64,000 nucleotides of DNA, taken from NCBI RefSeq assembly GCF_025947185.1, contig NZ_CP110001.1, forward strand, positions 992,001 through 1,056,000. The letters are read 5' to 3'. The position numbers and the translations under genes were made by a program. A model generated the notes under the pieces. That model made no database searches and had not been told where the DNA came from. It saw only the letters and a program-made list of their open reading frames with translations. Below are positions 7,761-54,095 of this stretch, one piece after another; position 1 is the first letter of the stretch; each line of letters opens with the position of its first letter. The stretch comes from Flavobacterium sp. N2038 (lineage in GTDB: Bacteria > Bacteroidota > Bacteroidia > Flavobacteriales > Flavobacteriaceae).

Positions 7761-9107
7761 ATGTTTAAAAAAATATTAATTGCAAATAGAGGAGAAATTG
7801 CACTTCGTGTAATTCGTACATGCAAGGAAATGGGAATTAAAACTGTAGCAGTTTACTCTACAGCCGATGCAGAAAGCCTTCATGTTAAGTTTGCTGATGA
7901 AGCGGTTTGTATTGGTCCCCCTCCAAGTAACTTATCGTATTTAAAAATGTCAAATATTATTGCTGCTGCAGAAATTACAAATGCAGATGCAATACACCCA
8001 GGATACGGATTTCTTTCTGAGAATGCTAAATTCTCTAAAATTTGTCAGGAACACGGTATCAAATTTATTGGTGCTGCTCCTGAAATGATCGACAGAATGG
8101 GAGATAAAGCTTCTGCTAAAGCTACAATGAAAGCAGCAGGAGTTCCTTGTGTACCAGGTTCAGACGGATTATTAGAATCTTATGAGCATGCACAAAAAGT
8201 AGCTAAAGAAATTGGTTATCCAGTTATGATGAAAGCTACTGCTGGTGGTGGTGGAAAAGGAATGCGTGCGATCTGGAAAGAAGATGAGCTTTTAAAAGCT
8301 TGGGAAAGTGCACGTCAGGAAGCTGCTGCAGCTTTTGGTAATGACGGAATGTACATGGAGAAACTTATCGAAGAACCACGTCATATCGAAATTCAGGTTG
8401 TTGGAGATTCTTACGGTAAAGCATGTCACCTTTCTGAAAGAGATTGTTCTGTTCAGCGTCGTCACCAAAAACTTACTGAAGAAACACCTTCGCCTTTCAT
8501 GACAGATGAACTTCGTGCAAAAATGGGAGAGGCTGCTGTAAAAGCTGCTGAATTCATTAAATATGAAGGAGCCGGAACTGTAGAGTTTTTGGTTGATAAA
8601 CACAGAAACTTCTACTTCATGGAAATGAATACTCGTATTCAGGTAGAGCACCCAATTACAGAACAAGTTATTGATTATGATTTGATCCGTGAGCAAATTA
8701 TGGTAGCAGCCGGAATTCCAATTTCAGGAAAAAACTATTTACCACAATTACACGCTATCGAATGTCGTATTAATGCCGAAGATCCATATAACGATTTTCG
8801 TCCTTCACCAGGAAAAATTACTACACTTCATATGCCAGGAGGACATGGAGTTCGTTTAGATACTCACGTTTATTCAGGTTATAGTATTCCGCCAAATTAC
8901 GATTCAATGATTGCTAAGTTAATTACAACAGCACAATCACGTGAAGAAGCTATTAGCAAAATGCGCAGAGCTTTGGATGAATTTGTTATTGAAGGTATAA
9001 AAACTACAATCCCTTTTCACAGACAATTAATGGATGATCCAAGATATATTGCAGGAGATTATACTACTGCATTTATGGATACATTTAAAATGAATAGTCC
9101 AGAATAA
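7761..9107 (+). CDS. accC: Biotin carboxylase subunit of acetyl-CoA carboxylase
   Basis: AccC carboxylates the biotin on AccB using ATP and bicarbonate. The 448 residues have the expected order: [17 protein letters not shown] at the N-terminus, [11 protein letters not shown], the glycine-rich ATP loop [19 protein letters not shown], and [14 protein letters not shown], which holds the catalytic and metal residues. The length is normal for a single-function biotin carboxylase. It is the last gene of the fatty-acid cluster, and a terminator follows five bases after its stop. The leader contains tandem octamers that could influence its expression. Confidence 0.97.
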
Positions 9108-9111
9108 ATTT

Positions 9112-9137
9112 AAGACCGTCAATTGACGGTCTTTTTT
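9112..9137 (+). terminator. Terminator after accC
   Basis: AAGACCGTCAATTGACGGTCTT is a perfect palindrome followed by a T run. Confidence 0.9.
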
Positions 9138-9154
9138 ATTTAATACAATTTTTG

Positions 9155-9189
9155 AGCCTGATAGATTTTAAAGTCTGTCGGGCTTTTTC
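9155..9189. repeat. Degenerate AGCC(T/C)GA(T/C)AGA palindrome
   Basis: AGCCTGATAGA and TCTGTCGGGCT pair with two G-T wobbles and are followed by five Ts. Similar hairpins occur at 38569-38600 and 38759-38785, so this belongs to a dispersed palindrome family that may also act as a terminator. Confidence 0.6.
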
Positions 9190-9225
9190 TGTTTTGATTT
9201 TGTTTTGAATTACAGAAGTAAACAC

Positions 9226-9270
9226 AAATAGTGTATACTTTTTACACACTATTTAGTTGGTTTACACACT
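9226..9270. promoter_or_regulatory. Inverted and direct repeats upstream of the PepSY-like array
   Basis: AAATAGTGT (9226-9234) and ACACTATTT (9246-9254) are a perfect inverted repeat. Overlapping it, TTTACACACT occurs twice, at 9241-9250 and 9261-9270, exactly 20 bases apart, which places the copies on the same face of the helix. This is the arrangement expected of an operator for a dimeric response regulator. No sigma-54 -24/-12 pair (GG, ten bases, GC) was found between here and 9421, and which protein binds is unknown. Confidence 0.45.
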
Positions 9271-9420
9271 TTTATGACTGTTCGGGAATTTCTGGTTTTT
9301 ACTTCAATGTCTTTAAGAATAAGGGGTTTAGCGGCTTTTGAAGGTGATATTGGATTTGCGGCACAATTGTTTCATTATCTAAAGCGTAGACAACTATTAA
9401 AAACTAAAAAATATACTACT

Positions 9421-9717
9421 ATGAAAAGATTATTTATATCAGCCGCTCTTGTTTTGGGAAGTTTAACTTCATTTGCTTCAACTTCGCCAATTACAAATTC
9501 TATCGTAAAATCAATTTCAGTTCAGGATGAATATACCGAAATTAAATTAGAAGAATTACCGGCTCCAATCACTGAATCATTAAAAAAATCATTTCCAAAT
9601 GCAGTGCTTACTAAAGCATATAAAAATGCAGCTTCTCAATATAAACTAGATGTTACTGTTGGTGAAAAAACAGGAAATCTTTTTGCGAACGCTGACGGAA
9701 CCTGGATTCAGAAATAA
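9421..9717 (+). CDS. Secreted PepSY-like protein, copy 1 of 6
   Basis: This 98-residue protein has a signal peptide (MKRLFISAALVLGSLTSFAS), the motif QDEYTEI, then a PepSY-like (DUF2874-type) core: LPAPITESLKKSFPNAVL followed by YKLDVTVGEKTGNLFANADGTW. It is expected in the periplasm. The frame stays open for 49 codons upstream, but the ATG at 9421 is chosen because it aligns exactly with the other five copies and has a leader like theirs. It is closest to copies 2 and 3 (shared STSPI and NADGTW). Confidence 0.85.
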   Translation: MKRLFISAALVLGSLTSFASTSPITNSIVKSISVQDEYTEIKLEELPAPITESLKKSFPNAVLTKAYKNAASQYKLDVTVGEKTGNLFANADGTWIQK

Positions 9718-9761
9718 TCCAAATTAACTTTTAATCAAATTAACTATTAAATATACACATT

Positions 9762-10058
9762 ATGAAAAATTTATTTTTATCAGCCGCAATCGTTTTGGGA
9801 GGTTTAACGTCATTTGCTTCAACTTCACCAATCGCAACTACAATCGTAAAAACAATTTCTATTCAGGACGAATACACAGAAATTAAATTAGAGGAAGTGC
9901 CTTCTGCAGTAACAGTTGCTCTTAAAAAAGCATATCCAGATGCAGTACTTTCTAAAGCATTTAAAAATACAGCTTCTCAATATAAATTAGACGTAACTGT
10001 AGGGGATAAAGTTGGATCTCTTTATGCTAATGCAGATGGAACCTGGATTAAAAAATAA
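9762..10058 (+). CDS. Secreted PepSY-like protein, copy 2 of 6
   Basis: A 98-residue protein that differs little from copy 3: the first 60 residues are nearly identical. The signal peptide MKNLFLSAAIVLGGLTSFAS is followed by ISIQDEYTEIKLEEVPSAVTVALKKAYPDAV and the C-terminal VGSLYANADGTWIKK. The start is preceded by a conserved leader (AAATATACACATT) also found before copy 3. No cysteines or obvious catalytic residues occur, so a binding or inhibitory role is more likely than an enzymatic one. It is 44 bases after copy 1. Confidence 0.87.
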   Translation: MKNLFLSAAIVLGGLTSFASTSPIATTIVKTISIQDEYTEIKLEEVPSAVTVALKKAYPDAVLSKAFKNTASQYKLDVTVGDKVGSLYANADGTWIKK

Positions 10059-10102
10059 TCCCTTTTTGTTCCAAATAAATTAATTTTAAATATACACACA
10101 TT

Positions 10103-10399
10103 ATGAAAAATCTATTTTTATCAGCCGCAATCGTTTTGGGAGGTTTAACATTATTTGCTTCAACTTCTCCAATCACAACTACAATCGTAAAAACAATTTC
10201 TATTCAGGACGAATACACAGAAATTAAAAATGAAGAAGTTCCTTCTGCAGTGACAGATGCGCTTAAAAAAGCTTATCCAACTGCAGTTCTTAATAAAGCC
10301 TATAAAAATACAGCTTCTCAATACAAGCTTGAAATTACAGTAGGTGACAAAGTTGGTTCGTTGTATGCAAATGCTGACGGATCTTGGGTAAAAAAATAA
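10103..10399 (+). CDS. Secreted PepSY-like protein, copy 3 of 6
   Basis: Almost a duplicate of copy 2 at the N-terminus, with the difference LTLFAS in the signal peptide and KNEEVPSAVTDALKKAYPTAV in the core. It ends GSLYANADGSWVKK. The short, near-identical leader (AAATATACACACATT) and equal 44-base spacing to copy 2 suggest a recent tandem duplication of a gene plus leader unit. A periplasmic location is inferred from the signal peptide. I assign no molecular function. Confidence 0.87.
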   Translation: MKNLFLSAAIVLGGLTLFASTSPITTTIVKTISIQDEYTEIKNEEVPSAVTDALKKAYPTAVLNKAYKNTASQYKLEITVGDKVGSLYANADGSWVKK

Positions 10400-10426
10400 T
10401 TAGTTTAACACTAAAATAATATCATT

Positions 10427-10717
10427 ATGAAAAAGTTAATCTTATCGGCAGCGATCCTTTTAGGAGGGTTGTCATCACAAGCAGCAACTATTGAAGTTAC
10501 AAATACAGTAGCTCCGTTAGTAAAGTTTCAGGATGAGTATAAAGAAGTTGATGCTGTTCCGGCGGCAATTAAAACAGCTTTGGATAATGCTTATCCAGGT
10601 GTAAAATTAGAAAAAGCGTATGTAAACGATAAAAAAGAATATAAAATCGAAATTATCGTTAGAGAGACAAAATCAATTGTTTACACAGACGCGCAAGGAA
10701 ACATTCTTAAAAAATAA
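10427..10717 (+). CDS. Secreted PepSY-like protein, copy 4 of 6
   Basis: This 96-residue copy starts the second subgroup: the signal peptide is MKKLILSAAILLGGLSSQAA and the core reads VPAAIKTALDNAYPGVKLEKAYVNDKKEYKIEI. It is two residues shorter than its neighbours at the loop after QDEYKEV and lacks the C-terminal Trp, ending in DAQGNILKK. It is the only copy with an Arg-Glu-Thr insertion in the fourth strand (VRETKSIVY), so the binding surface may differ. It starts 27 bases after copy 3. Confidence 0.86.
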   Translation: MKKLILSAAILLGGLSSQAATIEVTNTVAPLVKFQDEYKEVDAVPAAIKTALDNAYPGVKLEKAYVNDKKEYKIEIIVRETKSIVYTDAQGNILKK

Positions 10718-10735
10718 CTATAAAACCAATCCACT

Positions 10736-11032
10736 ATGAAAAAGTTAATTCTATCGGCAGCTATCGTTTTAGGAAGCTTGTCAATGCATGCAACAACTGC
10801 AACACTAAAATCTGAAAATGTGCAATCTGTAAATATCCAGGACGGTTATACAGAGATAACTGCCGATGAAGTACCTGCGGCTGTTAAGTCTACTATCGAA
10901 AAATCTTTTGCAGGTACAAAACTTGAAAAAGCGTATAAAAACGATAAAGGGGAGTATAAACTTGTGATTTCTAGTGGAGAGAAAAAGTATACTTTCTTTA
11001 CAGATGCTTCAGGAAATATTCTTAAAAAATAA
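10736..11032 (+). CDS. Secreted PepSY-like protein, copy 5 of 6
   Basis: A 98-residue copy with signal peptide MKKLILSAAIVLGSLSMHAT. The conserved block is IQDGYTEITADEVPAAVKSTIEKSFAGTKLEKAYKNDKGEYKL, and the end is DASGNILKK, like copy 4. QDGY replaces the QDEY motif. Only 18 bases separate it from copy 4, so copies 4-6 are probably one transcript with 1-3. Periplasmic; function unassigned. Confidence 0.86.
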   Translation: MKKLILSAAIVLGSLSMHATTATLKSENVQSVNIQDGYTEITADEVPAAVKSTIEKSFAGTKLEKAYKNDKGEYKLVISSGEKKYTFFTDASGNILKK

Positions 11033-11051
11033 TTTATAAAAAAAGAGCATT

Positions 11052-11348
11052 ATGAAAAAGCTAGCCCTGGCAATTGCTATTGTTTTAGGAACTATGTCTA
11101 TTTCTGCAACAGCAGAGACTACTCCAAATAAAGTTAAAATGTCCATTTCTGCACAAACAGAATATACAGAAGTAACTACAGATGCTGTTCCGGCCGCTGT
11201 AAAAACTGCTCTTCAGACTGCTTATCCTGGTGCTAAACTGGATAAAGCATTTGTAAATGAAAAAAAGGAATATAAATTAGAAATATCAGTTAAGGATCAA
11301 AAGGCTACTGTTTACTCAGATGTCAATGGCAATTGGCTGAAGATATAA
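11052..11348 (+). CDS. Secreted PepSY-like protein, copy 6 of 6
   Basis: The last and most divergent copy, 98 residues. The signal peptide MKKLALAIAIVLGTMSISAT is followed by AQTEYTEVTTDAVPAAVKTALQTAYPGAKLDKAFVNEKKEYKLEISV. It ends DVNGNWLKI, regaining the Trp of copies 1-3 and lacking the KK end of the others. It closes the array and is followed by a strong terminator at 11401. Family membership is seen from the shared core; the role is unknown. Confidence 0.86.
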   Translation: MKKLALAIAIVLGTMSISATAETTPNKVKMSISAQTEYTEVTTDAVPAAVKTALQTAYPGAKLDKAFVNEKKEYKLEISVKDQKATVYSDVNGNWLKI

Positions 11349-11400
11349 TAAATATATTATAAATATAATTAGGTGAAATTAGATTTATGTTTTTGGTGAA

Positions 11401-11433
11401 AAAGAGATTGCTGTAAGCAATCTCTTTTTTTTT
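11401..11433 (+). terminator. Terminator closing the PepSY-like array
   Basis: AAAGAGATTGCT, loop GTA and AGCAATCTCTTT make a perfect 12-pair stem with a T run. It separates the array from the response regulator gene. Confidence 0.92.
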
Positions 11434-11497
11434 GCATAAATTTGTGATAATACAAGTTTAATAGTGTTATTTTAGCAAATAAAGTCCCTAAAAACAA

Positions 11498-12847
11498 ATG
11501 TCAAAGATATTATTGATAGAAGATGATATCTCGTTTTGCAAATTATTAGAAAAGTTTTTAATAAAAAAAGCATACGAAGTATCTATCGCATTCTCTGCAG
11601 CAGAAGCCAGATTAGCAATTAAAAACGAATCTTTCGATTTGATTTTAACAGATTTGCGTTTGCCTGATTCTGACGGAATTGGTTTAATGTCTGAAATCAA
11701 GAATTCACATCCTCACATTCCGGTTGTTCTTATGACTGGTTACTCTGATGTAAATACTGCTGTAAAAGCAATAAAAAATGGTGCCGCAGATTATATCTCG
11801 AAGCCATTTAATCCTGATGAAGTTTTATTGGTAATTACAAATGCATTACAGAATCCTGAACCGGAACAAGCTCCTGCAAAAGAGAAGAAAGCTTTAAAAA
11901 AACAAGTTTCAACGGAAAACGAATTTGTAAAGGGTATTTCTATTGCTTCAAGGAAACTGTTAGACCACATTCAATTGGTAAGTCCAACAGATATGTCTGT
12001 GCTGATTATTGGCGAAAGTGGAACAGGAAAAGAAATTATTGCCAAAAGTATTCACCAGCAAAGTAATCGAAAAAACAATAATTTTATTGCGGTTGATTGC
12101 GGGGCAATTCCAAAAGAATTGGCAGCAAGCGAATTTTTCGGACATTTAAAAGGATCCTTTACAGGTGCGATTAGCGATAAAATGGGTTATTTTGAAGCTG
12201 CAAATGGAGGAACTTTATTTCTGGACGAAATAGGAAATCTTTCTTACGAAAATCAAATACAGTTATTAAGAGCACTTCAGGAACGAAAAATTAAGCCTGT
12301 TGGGAGTAACAAAGAAATAAACGTCGATATCCGCATTATAACTGCTACCAATGAAGATTTGCGTGAAGCAGTAAAAAACGGTGATTTTAGGGAAGATTTA
12401 TACCATAGAATCAATGAGTTTTCTATTCTTTCTCCATCGCTAAAAGACAGAGAAGAAGACTTAATGGTTTTTGCCGATTATTTTCTCGAAAAAGCCAATC
12501 AGCAACTAAATAAAGAAATTATAGGGTTTTCTCCCGAGGTTGTTTCTATTTTTCAAAAATACAACTGGCCCGGAAATTTACGTGAACTTCAAAATTGTGT
12601 AAAACGTGCTACACTTTTGTCTCAGGGTGAATATATTGAAAGTGATGTTTTACCTGCAGAGTTCTTTCAGGTTCAGAAACAAAATCCGGCAGAAACGACA
12701 ACTAGTTTCTCATTATCTGAAAATGAAAAAGAAACTATTATTCATGCTTTATCAAAAACACAAAATAATAAGTCTGAGGCGGCAAAATTGCTCAAAATTA
12801 CCAGAAAGACACTTTATAATAAATTAAAGCAATACAATATCGATTAA
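11498..12847 (+). CDS. Sigma-54-dependent response regulator (NtrC/AtoC family)
   Basis: The 449 residues form three domains. A receiver (1-118) has acidic pocket EDD, phosphoacceptor Asp52 and Lys104. The AAA+ sigma-54 activator has Walker A GESGTGKE (173-180), GSFTGA at 220-225 in place of GAFTGA, and Walker B GGTLFLDEI (238-246). A Fis-type helix-turn-helix ends NNKSEAAKLLKITRKTLYNKLKQY. It drives RpoN (38.8 kb in this window) at distant promoters. It converges with the hybrid kinase, whose stop overlaps its own stop, and follows the PepSY array, so the three are plausibly one signalling unit. Confidence 0.96.
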   Translation: MSKILLIEDDISFCKLLEKFLIKKAYEVSIAFSAAEARLAIKNESFDLILTDLRLPDSDGIGLMSEIKNSHPHIPVVLMTGYSDVNTAVKAIKNGAADYISKPFNPDEVLLVITNALQNPEPEQAPAKEKKALKKQVSTENEFVKGISIASRKLLDHIQLVSPTDMSVLIIGESGTGKEIIAKSIHQQSNRKNNNFIAVDCGAIPKELAASEFFGHLKGSFTGAISDKMGYFEAANGGTLFLDEIGNLSYENQIQLLRALQERKIKPVGSNKEINVDIRIITATNEDLREAVKNGDFREDLYHRINEFSILSPSLKDREEDLMVFADYFLEKANQQLNKEIIGFSPEVVSIFQKYNWPGNLRELQNCVKRATLLSQGEYIESDVLPAEFFQVQKQNPAETTTSFSLSENEKETIIHALSKTQNNKSEAAKLLKITRKTLYNKLKQYNID

Positions 12848-15279
12848 ACGATTTCTTTTTCTAAGGATTCAAAAAGAGAATCAATCTGTTTTTTTAAATC
12901 TTTATAAATGACTTTTGCTTCAGAAAGTTCAAAATCAGTACTTTCTAATGTTTTTAAAATTTCGCCAATTTTACGCGCTTCAATTTGTTTAAACATTGGA
13001 GTAATGCGATGTGCAATGGCTTTTATTTCGATTATGTTTTTTTCTGAAATAGCATTTTCTAATGCAGCTAAATTTTCGTTGCTGCTCTCAACAAACGATT
13101 TTAAAACATCTTTTAATGCTGTGGTATCATTTCCAAGAAATTCTTTTAGAGTATTTAGAGAATATAATTGCGATGAAATATTTTCTTTAGCATCATATAT
13201 TTCGGTCTGAGGTAAAGTATCATTTTCTAAGATAATGCGAATAGTATCCAGTAAGATTTTTGGCGAGTAAGGCTTCTTCACGACGGTTATAAAGCCGGCA
13301 TCTGCATAAACAGAAGCTTCTAAATCTGTTCGTCCTGTTAAGGCAATTACAGGCTGACTACTATAAGCAGCACTGTTTTTTAGATTTTGCAGAAACATAA
13401 AACCATCCATTTCCGGCATTTGAATATCAGTAATCACAAAGTCGAAGTTGGTTTTCTGAATTGCTTCCAACGCTTTTGTGGCACTGTTAAAAGATAAAAC
13501 CTGATGTTTTTCTTGTCTCAATACACCACTTGTTAAGTTGAGAAGATTAATGTCATCATCAATCACAATAAAAGTTTGAGCCTTTGTATTTTGCAGGATT
13601 GGTCTTTTGGTCTCGTTAATTAAATTTGAGCTGGTATCAAATAACAACGGAAGCTGAATTTCAAAAGTACTGCCTTTCCCAAAAGTGCTTTCAAGCTGTA
13701 AAGTTCCGCCCAGAATCGAAATTATTTTTTGACAAATAGATAAGCCCAGACCAGTTCCTCCGTATTTTTTTTCGATGCCTTCGTTTGCCTGAGCAAATTC
13801 TTCAAATACAAGTTTCTGATTTCCTTTTTCGATTCCAATTCCGGTATCTTGAATTGTAATTATGAAAAATTGATTATTTTCAGAAGGATAAGCGCTGATT
13901 TTTATAAAACCTTCATCCGTAAATTTATAGGCATTCCCAATAATATTACTCAAAATTTGTTTGAGTCGAAACCGATCTCCCACAATTTTTGCATTCAGTT
14001 TTTCATTAACATGAATAATTAAATCAATGTTTTTTTGGTTGTATACCGTCTGGATACTTTTGGCAACTTCCTCAATAACTTCAGAAAGTAAAAAAGGAAC
14101 TTTTTCAATTGTAATTTTTCCCGCTTCAATTTTTGAAAAATCCAGCAAGTCCTGAACCAGTTGCGTAATATATTCTGAAGAGTTTTTAATGTTTTTAATG
14201 AAATAAGACTGCTTGGTGTTGACTTCAGAATTGTCCAGAAGTTCAGAATAACCCACGATTGTGCTCAAAGGTGTTTTTAAATCATGACTTACAGTCGAGA
14301 TTAATTGTTCCCGGCTTTTAAGGAGGTTCTTTGTTTTGAAATTCGCAATTTCGAGCTGCTTTTTATACAATTGAGATTTAGAATAATCACTGACAATTAA
14401 AATAGAAAAGAAGATTGTAAGTACTAAACCAATAATGGCAGAAGCAGTCACAATTTCATTAACTTTTCGAAGTGATTTTTCCTTTAGAGAATTATTTTTT
14501 ATAGAGTTGATAATGATTTCGCGCTCAATTATTCGAAGTACTTTTCTAAGCTGTTCAGAGATTGCAATTTCATTTTTAAGTAATTTATTTTCCTCAAAAT
14601 TCAGGGATTCTTTTTTCTTTTCTGCCCGCATTTTTACAGAACTCAAAAGTTTTTTAGAATTTGCCAAAATCGAATCAGAGGCTTGTTTGCTCAATGTATT
14701 TGTACTGTCATCGGGAATATTCTGATTGAGATAATCAACATATTTTTGAAGTACATTTTTTTGATAACTTCCAAGCTGATTAGGGTTTTTGGTAAAATCC
14801 TGAAGTTCCAGTTTTCGAAGTTTAAACTCCATTTTGGTAATTTCATCGATTGCCGTATTTACCGATACTTCATCATCGGCTTTGTTTTTTATTGTTTTTA
14901 ATTGCTGAATGTTTTTGGTTTTTTCAGACAATAGATAAGTAACACTATCCAGTAAAATTTTTTGGTAATCGGTAGTAACAATTTGTTTTAAAGTATCGAT
15001 TCGGGCACGCAAAGAATCCGTTTCGATAACATAACTTTTAAAGTCTTTATCAGAGTTCGTCTGAATTGTTTTTCGGGCTAAACTTTCGGTTTTATAAACA
15101 TTAGAAAAAAGTTTACTAACTCTTAAAATCTTTGTTTTCTCAAAAGCAATTTTGTCTTCCAGTTTATTATACACTACATTTTCAGAATATAGAAACCATC
15201 CAACGGTAACAACGAGAGCCAATAGTGCTACGTAGCTAAAGAGCACTTTAATAGCGGTGTAACTTTTTTTGCTCTCCAT
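12844..15279 (-). CDS. Hybrid sensor histidine kinase with receiver and Hpt domains
   Basis: An 811-residue membrane kinase. TM1 is at about 11-31, a largely helical periplasmic region of about 245 residues follows, and TM2 is at 277-297. The HisKA phospho-acceptor His332 is in SHDLKTPLS. The ATPase domain shows N and G boxes (NIIGNAYKF, DTGIGI, GTGLGLSI). A receiver has DIQMPEMDG, and an Hpt domain carries the AHRITP motif. It is a phosphorelay able to end on the neighbouring sigma-54 regulator. Its gene is convergent and overlaps the regulator's stop by four bases. The stimulus is unknown; the long periplasmic part suits sensing of envelope or secreted proteins. Confidence 0.95.
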   Translation of the reverse strand: MESKKSYTAIKVLFSYVALLALVVTVGWFLYSENVVYNKLEDKIAFEKTKILRVSKLFSNVYKTESLARKTIQTNSDKDFKSYVIETDSLRARIDTLKQIVTTDYQKILLDSVTYLLSEKTKNIQQLKTIKNKADDEVSVNTAIDEITKMEFKLRKLELQDFTKNPNQLGSYQKNVLQKYVDYLNQNIPDDSTNTLSKQASDSILANSKKLLSSVKMRAEKKKESLNFEENKLLKNEIAISEQLRKVLRIIEREIIINSIKNNSLKEKSLRKVNEIVTASAIIGLVLTIFFSILIVSDYSKSQLYKKQLEIANFKTKNLLKSREQLISTVSHDLKTPLSTIVGYSELLDNSEVNTKQSYFIKNIKNSSEYITQLVQDLLDFSKIEAGKITIEKVPFLLSEVIEEVAKSIQTVYNQKNIDLIIHVNEKLNAKIVGDRFRLKQILSNIIGNAYKFTDEGFIKISAYPSENNQFFIITIQDTGIGIEKGNQKLVFEEFAQANEGIEKKYGGTGLGLSICQKIISILGGTLQLESTFGKGSTFEIQLPLLFDTSSNLINETKRPILQNTKAQTFIVIDDDINLLNLTSGVLRQEKHQVLSFNSATKALEAIQKTNFDFVITDIQMPEMDGFMFLQNLKNSAAYSSQPVIALTGRTDLEASVYADAGFITVVKKPYSPKILLDTIRIILENDTLPQTEIYDAKENISSQLYSLNTLKEFLGNDTTALKDVLKSFVESSNENLAALENAISEKNIIEIKAIAHRITPMFKQIEARKIGEILKTLESTDFELSEAKVIYKDLKKQIDSLFESLEKEIV

Positions 15280-38831: not shown

Positions 38832-40292
38832 CTAAATCTTTTTTCTCATTCGAGCAACCGGAATATCTAATTGCTCACGATATTTTGCAATAGTTCTTCT
38901 TGCAATTGGATATCCTTTTTCTTTTAAGATTTCTGCCAATTGATCATCTGGAAGCGGTTTCTTTTTGTCCTCTTCTTCAATCGTATTTTTAAGAATCTTT
39001 TTGATTTCTAAAGTTGAGACATCTTCACCCTGATCATTTTTCATGGCTTCAGAGAAGAATTCTTTAATCAGTTTAGTACCATAAGGAGTTTCAACATATT
39101 TACTGTTGGCAACTCTTGAAATCGTCGAGATATCTAAACCAACCATATCGGCAATGTCTTTTAAGATCATTGGTTTTAGCTTGGTTTCGTCGCCGTCTAA
39201 GAAATAATCTTCCTGATAATGCATAATCGCATTCATGGTTACAAAAAGAGTTTCCTGACGTTGTCTAATCGCATCGATAAACCATTTAGCCGAATCCAGT
39301 TTTTGTTTGATAAACTGAACCGCATCTTTTTGAGCAGTCGATTTATCACGAGAATCTTTATACGTCTGCATCATTTCCTGATAATCTTTAGAAACGTGCA
39401 GGGAAGGAGCATTTCTTCCGTTTAGCGTCAATTCCAGTTCACCGTCAACAATTCTGATGGCAAAATCCGGAACCACATTTTCTGTTACTTTGTTGTTTCC
39501 GGTGTAAGATCCTCCTGGTTTTGGGTTTAATCTTTCAATTTCATTAATTGCTTTTTTAAGCTGTTCATTCGAAACACCATATTTCTGAAGTAATTTGTCG
39601 TAATGTTTCTTCGTAAATGCATCAAACTGATTTTCGATAATGTCAATTGCCAAATCAACATATTCAGTTGGCGTTTTATGCTTCAGCTGAAGCAATAAGC
39701 ATTCCTGTAAATCTCGCGCACCAACTCCTGAAGGTTCCAGTTCGTGGATTACGGTCATCATTTTTTCGACCATTGCTTCATCAGTATAAATTCCCTGAGT
39801 AAAAGCCATATCGTCTACAATGTCCGGAACACTTCTGCGGATGTAACCCATATCATCAATACTTCCAACAAGGAATTCGGCGATTTCGCGTTCTTCGTCA
39901 TTCAAAATAAAAGTATTCAGCTGATTGATTAAATCCTGATGAAAACTAATTGGCGAAGCAAAAGGTGTTTCGCGTTCTTCATCTTCACTGTAATTGTTAA
40001 CCTGAGTTTTGTAATCAGGTGTATCGTCGTCGCTTAAGTATTCATCAATGTTAATATCATCTGCTTCGATTCTGTCAGATTCTGCATCATCATAATCGTC
40101 GTAGTCTTCATTGGCAAATTCATCGGCTTCGTATTCTTCTTCTTTTCCAGCTTCAAGAGCCGGATTTTCGTTCATTTCTTCCAATAAACGTTGTTCAAAA
40201 GCTTGCGTAGGCAATTGAATTAACTTCATCAGCTGTATTTGCTGTGGAGATAATTTTTGGGATAATTTTAAATTTAAAAATTGCTTTAGCAT
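38832..40292 (-). CDS. rpoN: RNA polymerase sigma-54 factor
   Basis: The 486-residue protein has region I (LKLSQKLSPQQIQLMKLIQLPTQAFEQRLLEEMNENPALE), an acidic region II (long Asp/Glu stretch), the core-binding domain and the C-terminal HTH, with the RpoN box ARRTIAKYREQLDIP near the end. It recruits core polymerase to -24/-12 promoters activated by NtrC-type regulators such as the one at 11.5 kb. A 12-residue longer start is unlikely because MLKQFLNLKLSQKLS is the standard N-terminus. Its leader holds paired octamer arrays. Confidence 0.97.
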   Translation of the reverse strand: MLKQFLNLKLSQKLSPQQIQLMKLIQLPTQAFEQRLLEEMNENPALEAGKEEEYEADEFANEDYDDYDDAESDRIEADDINIDEYLSDDDTPDYKTQVNNYSEDEERETPFASPISFHQDLINQLNTFILNDEEREIAEFLVGSIDDMGYIRRSVPDIVDDMAFTQGIYTDEAMVEKMMTVIHELEPSGVGARDLQECLLLQLKHKTPTEYVDLAIDIIENQFDAFTKKHYDKLLQKYGVSNEQLKKAINEIERLNPKPGGSYTGNNKVTENVVPDFAIRIVDGELELTLNGRNAPSLHVSKDYQEMMQTYKDSRDKSTAQKDAVQFIKQKLDSAKWFIDAIRQRQETLFVTMNAIMHYQEDYFLDGDETKLKPMILKDIADMVGLDISTISRVANSKYVETPYGTKLIKEFFSEAMKNDQGEDVSTLEIKKILKNTIEEEDKKKPLPDDQLAEILKEKGYPIARRTIAKYREQLDIPVARMRKKI

Positions 40293-40302
40293 ATAAAAAG
40301 TT

Positions 40303-40427
40303 GCTAAGGTACTAAGGCACTGAGGCACTGAGTATCTTATGTTGACGAATTAAATTCGCGATTGAATTATTTTATTTATATTTTAAAAACTTAGAACCTT
40401 AGTATCTCAGTACCTTAGAACCTCAGA
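40303..40427. repeat. Paired octamer arrays in the rpoN leader
   Basis: The arm near rpoN is CTAAGGTA, CTAAGGCA, CTGAGGCA, CTGAGTAT (40305-40336). The other arm, directly after asnS, is CTTAGAAC, CTTAGTAT, CTCAGTAC, CTTAGAAC, CTCAGATT (40390-40429). The period is eight bases in both and the CTAAG and CTTAG cores are complementary. The arms flank 53 bases of AT-rich sequence between asnS and rpoN. Confidence 0.8.
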
Positions 40428-54062: not shown

Positions 54063-54095
54063 GGCACATTACTTTCATTTGTAATGTGCTTTTTT
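54063..54095 (+). terminator. Terminator after the tiny ORF
   Basis: GCACATTAC and GTAATGTGC pair perfectly around an eight-base loop, followed by eight Ts; it also lies next to the truB stop. Confidence 0.85.

Follow-up and report, generated by a model that had tools for sequence, protein, structure and literature searches.

Six tandem genes for small secreted proteins, together with the genes for an NtrC-type response regulator (RR) and a hybrid histidine kinase (HK) beside them, form a module that, judging from sequence comparisons, is conserved and larger than first reported. On balance, and with modest confidence, we favour reading it as an autoregulated envelope-signalling module, a Bacteroidota counterpart of the Vibrio DbfQRS system, in which the secreted proteins would damp the HK; sequence evidence and analogy both enter into this reading. 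The module thereby joins a class of two-component systems whose description dates from late 2025, and it receives a concrete predicted circuit comprising an activator site, a sigma-54 promoter, the array and a second target. A literature search, with subscription journals mostly outside its coverage, found no paper on the array/RR/HK module.

Six secreted proteins are encoded beside a sigma-54 two-component system

The window (the whole stretch of DNA analysed, 64,000 nt) holds an array of six tandem open reading frames (ORFs) of 96–98 codons each, spanning 9421–11348, as the sequence-only reading had described. The features of the locus are as follows.

9231..9247, no strand assigned: palindrome GTGTATACTTTTTACAC, putative RR binding site (upstream activator site), from conservation against shuffles
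9360..9376, + strand: sigma-54-type promoter GGCACAATTGTTTCATT with −24/−12 spacing and TTTC instead of TTGC, from alignment and shuffles
9421..9717, + strand: copy 1, secreted DUF2874-type protein, 98 aa, from ORF and alignment
9762..10058, + strand: copy 2, 98 aa, from ORF and alignment
10103..10399, + strand: copy 3, 98 aa, from ORF and alignment
10427..10717, + strand: copy 4, 96 aa, from ORF and alignment
10736..11032, + strand: copy 5, 98 aa, from ORF and alignment
11052..11348, + strand: copy 6, 98 aa, the RR-adjacent type, one clade over 28 genomes, from ORF, tree and structure
11359..11428, + strand: 3′ region of the array with a terminator-like hairpin at about 11400–11428, fold z −4.2
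11498..12847, + strand: NtrC-type RR with receiver, sigma-54 AAA+ and Fis HTH domains, from domain search
12844..15279, − strand: hybrid HK with HisKA, HATPase, receiver and Hpt domains, from domain search

The mechanical ORF call sets the start of copy 1 further upstream, at 9274. Signal-peptide-like N-terminal stretches, which had also been claimed, are present in all six copies as judged by eye, and the gaps between copies measure 44, 44, 27, 18 and 19 bases, within the range of 18–44 given before. Cysteine is absent from all six copies, which are therefore not lipoproteins. All six copies agree in 18 of 98 columns, and the proposed division into copies 1–3 and copies 4–6 is borne out by identity to copy 1 (73% for copy 2 and 69% for copy 3; 38, 44 and 33% for copies 4–6).

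The family assignment is remote. All six copies fall below the Pfam gathering score for PF11396 (PepSY_like, or DUF2874), the best scoring 23.7 against 28.3 bits; copy 2 has no PF11396 match listed at all in the Pfam scan, and a precomputed PF11396 assignment exists for 5 of 120 listed relatives. Membership in PF11396/DUF2874 comes instead from profile similarity to solved members and from the shared fold, the best solved matches in a fold search with copy 6 being 3u1w, 4k61, 4hbr and 4fr9. The earlier PepSY-like label thus stands at the level of profile and fold, but as a distant relationship in which the six copies miss the Pfam cut-off. Cystatin, monellin and DsbG also appeared in the fold search and were put down to common arrangements.

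The hairpin lies between the array and the RR gene, which begins 149 bases after the array ends. All three RR domains score above cut-off (receiver 97.3, sigma-54 AAA+ 226.6 and Fis HTH 52.1 bits) and the genome has a sigma-54 gene, as befits an NtrC-type sigma-54 RR. That gene, rpoN, is the sole match in the genome and lies at 38832–40328 on the − strand, about 23 kb from the HK gene. Regulator and kinase had both been placed directly downstream of the array; both are indeed beside it, but the kinase is on the opposite strand, convergent with the RR gene, the two gene ends overlapping by 4 bases. The HK Hpt domain scores just under cut-off, and a low-confidence model (mean pLDDT 61.7) gives the HK a helical periplasmic region at about residues 31–275. 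In loci chosen by their RR, this sensor is 90% conserved among close loci and 61% among those of the next group, compared with 77 and 54% for the receiver, 59 and 46% for Hpt, and 95 and 80% for HisKA. Sensor conservation is above that of the receiver and Hpt and below that of HisKA, and we claim no special constraint; an earlier figure of 94% was biased because the kinases had been found by their sensor.

The array and the kinase–regulator pair are conserved together

We surveyed 121 Flavobacterium genomes, drawn from a larger group in which the close loci are near kin. In 59 of them the RR was found at E ≤ 1e-100, and we examined each of these 59 loci, that of the window among them. At 46 of the 59, copies precede the RR on its own strand: in 28/28 close loci (RR identity 83% or more; 4–6 copies each), in 13/13 mid-distance loci (73–79%; 1–3 each) and in 5/18 distant loci (52–60%; one each). 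A search with the copies themselves found 51 of the 121 genomes, namely the 46 RR loci and five RR-less genomes with weak matches (E 3.7e-7 to 9e-5); a strong copy was absent from all 62 RR-less genus genomes. Named RR carriers include F. johnsoniae CI04, F. denitrificans and F. hibernum, and the nearest named record is F. branchiicola, with an RR 98% identical.

At the family level the RR was found at E ≤ 1e-130 in 94 of 299 genomes and 72 of 236 genera. Among 60 loci fetched from 92 RR genomes of other genera, mainly the best-scoring, 56 have one to four copies and 58 a convergent HK; the copies lie 90–882 bases before the RR, beyond 350 bases in 6 of the 56. The HK is convergent in all 102 loci with copies (46 genus and 56 other-genus loci). 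A class-level sample of 26 loci outside the genus, taken from 44 places with 1500-base flanks, contains a copy in eight loci, seven of which have a convergent HK. The array and the kinase–regulator pair, for which the sequence-only reading had proposed a check of synteny, are thus kept together, not apart, in most of the loci examined in genus and family. Over 146 loci, a convergent HK was seen in 110 of the 111 that have a copy and in 7 of the 35 that do not, although correction for kinship leaves five independent pairs only, so that the coupling cannot be confirmed.

Orthologous copies of equal length have a median dN/dS of 0.13–0.18, and we conclude from this sequence measure that the copies are under purifying selection, which together with synteny across genera rules out chance duplication. 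In a tree of 167 copies, the RR-adjacent type of 28 genomes forms a single clade (support 0.76); copies of the next type, 28 in number, group with four third-position copies (support 0.95). Six copies have been reached by two routes in the eight genomes that have them: a third 5′-type copy in four, the window included, and an extra second-type copy in the other four. With numbers from one to six in related genomes, the array offers a natural dosage series for how accessory proteins tune a sensor kinase. Remnants resembling decayed copies were seen by eye between the last copy and the RR in L092, L036, L040 and L041.

A conserved promoter and palindrome precede the array

The loci share a motif, GGYAY-N5-TTTC, before the first copy, strict forms lying 45–76 bases before the start. 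It occurs in 27/28 close loci (0.65 in dinucleotide shuffles), 8/12 of the next group (0.1), 8/18 distant loci (0.08) and 41/60 loci of other genera (0.6), and is absent from 34 of the 118 loci scanned, L252–L254 being scanned from the first aligned base. The form of the motif was fixed after inspection of the sequences: a strict TGG form was present in 48 of 99 loci and missed the close group of the window, which has CGG, and the motif was relaxed before the shuffle test. The array promoter is a conserved GG-N10-TC, compared with the sigma-54 consensus GG-N10-GC at −24/−12; a canonical GG-N10-GC promoter before copy 1 was rejected, having no consistent match where the conserved element has TC. 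A longer promoter pattern with at most one mismatch gave three genome matches and none with the reversed control. A promoter-like match at window position 54063 lies within a hairpin before a T-run and was read as a terminator.

Upstream of the promoter motif is the palindrome GTGTD-N7-HACAC, which at no more than one mismatch was found in 27/27 (shuffles 1.45), 10/12 (0.72) and 8/18 (0.78) genus loci and in 36/58 loci of other genera (4.07); promoter and palindrome both stand far above shuffles in four groups of loci. The exact form GTGTA-N7-TACAC occurs at three places in the genome and the reversed pattern at five, and therefore the genome count alone is at chance. No promoter was seen at the third exact palindrome (G000:C1:2865049), and the matches in the distant-group loci L055 and L057 look spurious, the real site probably being another. 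The inner bases vary with RR distance in L046, L050 and L051 (TACTTTT or AAAATTA versus GAATTTC), as if palindrome and regulator were changing together.

One of the two palindromes outside the array lies 72 bases before the sigma-54 promoter of another gene, far from the array in the genome:

L129:3622-5067 (G000:C1:2843621-2845063): NodC/PgaC-like GT2 membrane glycosyltransferase gene, with palindrome and canonical sigma-54 promoter

Orthologues of this gene occur in 19 of the 24 genomes with the RR and in none of the 8 without it, although these 32 genomes were hand-chosen and those without the RR are more distant, so that kinship may explain part of the difference. A canonical or near-canonical TTG[CT] sigma-54 promoter precedes 18 of the 19 orthologues (shuffles 0.36), and 14 of the 19 also have the palindrome (shuffles 1.0), 68–73 bases before the promoter. 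The strongest argument for assigning the palindrome to this RR is its presence at an unrelated gene that has a sigma-54 promoter, and the glycosyltransferase is predicted to be the second target of the RR. A gene for a 147-aa PF11396 protein (L129:2875-3318; also L236–L239) that scores 70.5 bits, above cut-off, adjoins the glycosyltransferase in 4 of 19 loci with 1500-base flanks.

Because promoter and palindrome are conserved and the palindrome is shared with the glycosyltransferase promoter, the RR probably drives both the array and a polysaccharide synthase, and array expression is predicted to change when the RR is absent. Sigma-54 promoters in F. psychrophilum precede chaperone, envelope-stress and gliding genes according to passages of PMC9723704, in whose available text the word 'PepSY' does not occur.

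Some loci lack a protein copy and may encode an RNA

Ten loci have no protein copy and a non-coding stretch before the RR: eight are distant genus loci (L048, L049, L053–L057 and L061) and two are from outside the genus (L217 and L226). The exact promoter motif is retained in five of the ten (L055, L056, L057, L217 and L226); four others have promoter variants by eye, and L061 has none. All eight genus loci hold an element, TAGTAAGGTGA, before two hairpins. Within 480 bases of the RR, 11 of the 59 genus loci, including three that have a protein copy, contain the word AGTAAGGTGA, followed by two hairpins in which 6 of 13 pairs are changed on both sides; the aligned rows were chosen for having this 10-base word, and its invariance reflects that choice. 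The word was not seen before the RR in the 60 other-genus loci.

An RNA model of the element finds the 11 loci strongly and, in the 121 genomes, nothing else better than E 0.046. In 23 other sources, the window included, 7 of 11 weak matches lie in the 3′ region before the RR, where the terminator stem raises the scores; the 3′ region of the window (11359..11428) matches model R1 weakly, at 12.6 bits and E 5.6. An Rfam scan of 9100–11520 gave nothing near gathering score. Flavo-1 RNAs (RF01705) lie near the module at L049:11899-11977 (−), just upstream of the HK gene and on its strand, and at L056:9683-9763 (+); as an explanation of the protein-less stretch they were rejected, being outside it. 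The element before the hairpins is a possible small RNA, a lead and not a result.

A proposed feedback circuit and its alternatives

In the mechanism that we propose, the RR, presumably when phosphorylated, would bind the palindrome at 9231–9247 and activate sigma-54 polymerase at 9360–9376, a step in line with the sequence conservation there. The transcript would encode the six secreted proteins and stop at the terminator before the RR gene, and the same RR would turn on the distant NodC/PgaC-like polysaccharide synthase gene, as the shared sites suggest. By analogy, the exported DUF2874 proteins may dock on the HK periplasmic domain and tip the kinase towards phosphatase activity, a damping that would close a negative feedback loop; having several copies might set the strength of the brake or answer different envelope cues. 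The regulatory half of this scheme is well supported by sequence comparison, and that the copies bind the HK sensor we infer by analogy. Perhaps one copy type alone does so, the conserved RR-adjacent type suggesting itself. Seven loci have a convergent HK yet no copy, and a copy is therefore not always needed.

Induction by the RR is as compatible with an effector as with a feedback protein. It is possible, if on the unlikely side, that the copies are periplasmic protective proteins that bind metal, peptides or misfolded proteins under envelope stress without acting on the HK, more copies meaning more dose: the array is predicted to be an RR target and to be transcribed separately from RR and HK, its copy number varies from one to six as dosage genes do, and certain solved DUF2874 relatives carry titles such as calcium-binding or calcium-regulated. 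Adjacency to the RR and HK, kept in 102 of 119 genus and family loci, is however more than a mere target needs, and the other predicted target, the glycosyltransferase, sits far away. Predicted co-regulation with that synthase could also mean that the copies act with its polysaccharide, whether they belong to the secreted matrix or the cell surface or inhibit enzymes attacking envelope or matrix, and passages of PMC2954215 place DUF2874 in a superfamily that includes inhibitor proteins; we hold this improbable, as 5 of 24 RR genomes (G111, G051, G007, G045 and G030) have the array but no orthologue of the glycosyltransferase.

The ten protein-less loci, and the hairpins with paired changes after AGTAAGGTGA in 11 of 59 genus loci, would suit a locus that serves chiefly to make a regulatory RNA at its 3′ end, with secondary, dispensable proteins. 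We consider this very improbable given proteins under purifying selection, rows whose invariance is by construction and an element that is barely matched in the window and unseen in the other-genus loci. A broader version of the feedback module, which we regard as doubtful, would make the array a periplasmic rheostat in which diverged DUF2874 proteins compete for one HK sensor, the number and type of copies setting gain and cue specificity, while a small RNA from the 3′ end of the same transcript would serve as a cytoplasmic second arm, certain lineages having lost the proteins and relying on the RNA. The reading that we favour remains the autoregulated feedback module; where the sequence-only reading left the choice between sensing, buffering and decoy roles, we thus lean, by analogy with DbfQ, towards feedback on the kinase sensor.

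Comparison with known systems

In the ZraPSR system of enterobacteria, a periplasmic protein induced by a sigma-54 RR feeds back on its kinase; that protein, ZraP, is a single zinc-binding protein unrelated to the array copies. ZraR is the best NCBIfam match of the RR described here, at 401.8 bits, under the cut-off of 760.

Closer in family are proteins of Bacteroidota. BVU2987 and other DUF2874 proteins of Bacteroides share fold and family with the copies, but BVU2987 has two repeats and the array copies one each; passages of PMC2954215 make no mention of a two-component neighbour. In the HaeRS system of Porphyromonas gingivalis, as set out in passages of PMC3764172, PG0717 carries four DUF2874 domains in one chain and is encoded beside the kinase, so that several DUF2874 repeats adjoin a two-component system there as well. 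HaeRS differs in being a classical pair, with kinase and regulator of 50 and 25 kDa and a hemin regulon, whereas the module here has a sigma-54 RR and a hybrid HK.

The nearest functional parallel is the DbfQRS pathway of V. cholerae. According to passages of PMC12714742, the gene for DbfQ, a periplasmic PepSY protein, adjoins those of its two-component system; DbfQ binds the sensor of DbfS and thereby turns this kinase towards phosphatase activity, and the pathway responds to outer-membrane damage and controls biofilm. The same source predicts that only one of two PepSY proteins of P. aeruginosa binds its kinase. Its survey relied on IPR025711 only, an entry unlikely to gather PF11396 proteins; the string 'Bacteroid' is absent from its main text. 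As in DbfQRS, the gene for a small secreted PepSY-superfamily protein immediately precedes a two-component system and lies no more than four genes from HK or RR, though the protein is of PF11396 rather than IPR025711, and the output is, here by prediction, under the control of its own system, with biofilm or exopolysaccharide genes among the outputs. The differences from the DbfQRS described in PMC12714742 are clear: single-repeat PF11396 proteins in up to six copies in place of the PF03413/IPR025711 kind, an NtrC-type sigma-54 RR, a hybrid HK on the opposite strand, and an array with its own promoter and terminator. Co-transcription of the array with RR and HK, as in DbfQRS, is not found, with a terminator hairpin before the RR and the HK on the other strand. 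Taking sequence and analogy together, this sigma-54 module, whose array encodes periplasmic DUF2874 proteins and whose second predicted target is a polysaccharide synthase, would best be explained as a variant of the DbfQRS-like kind.
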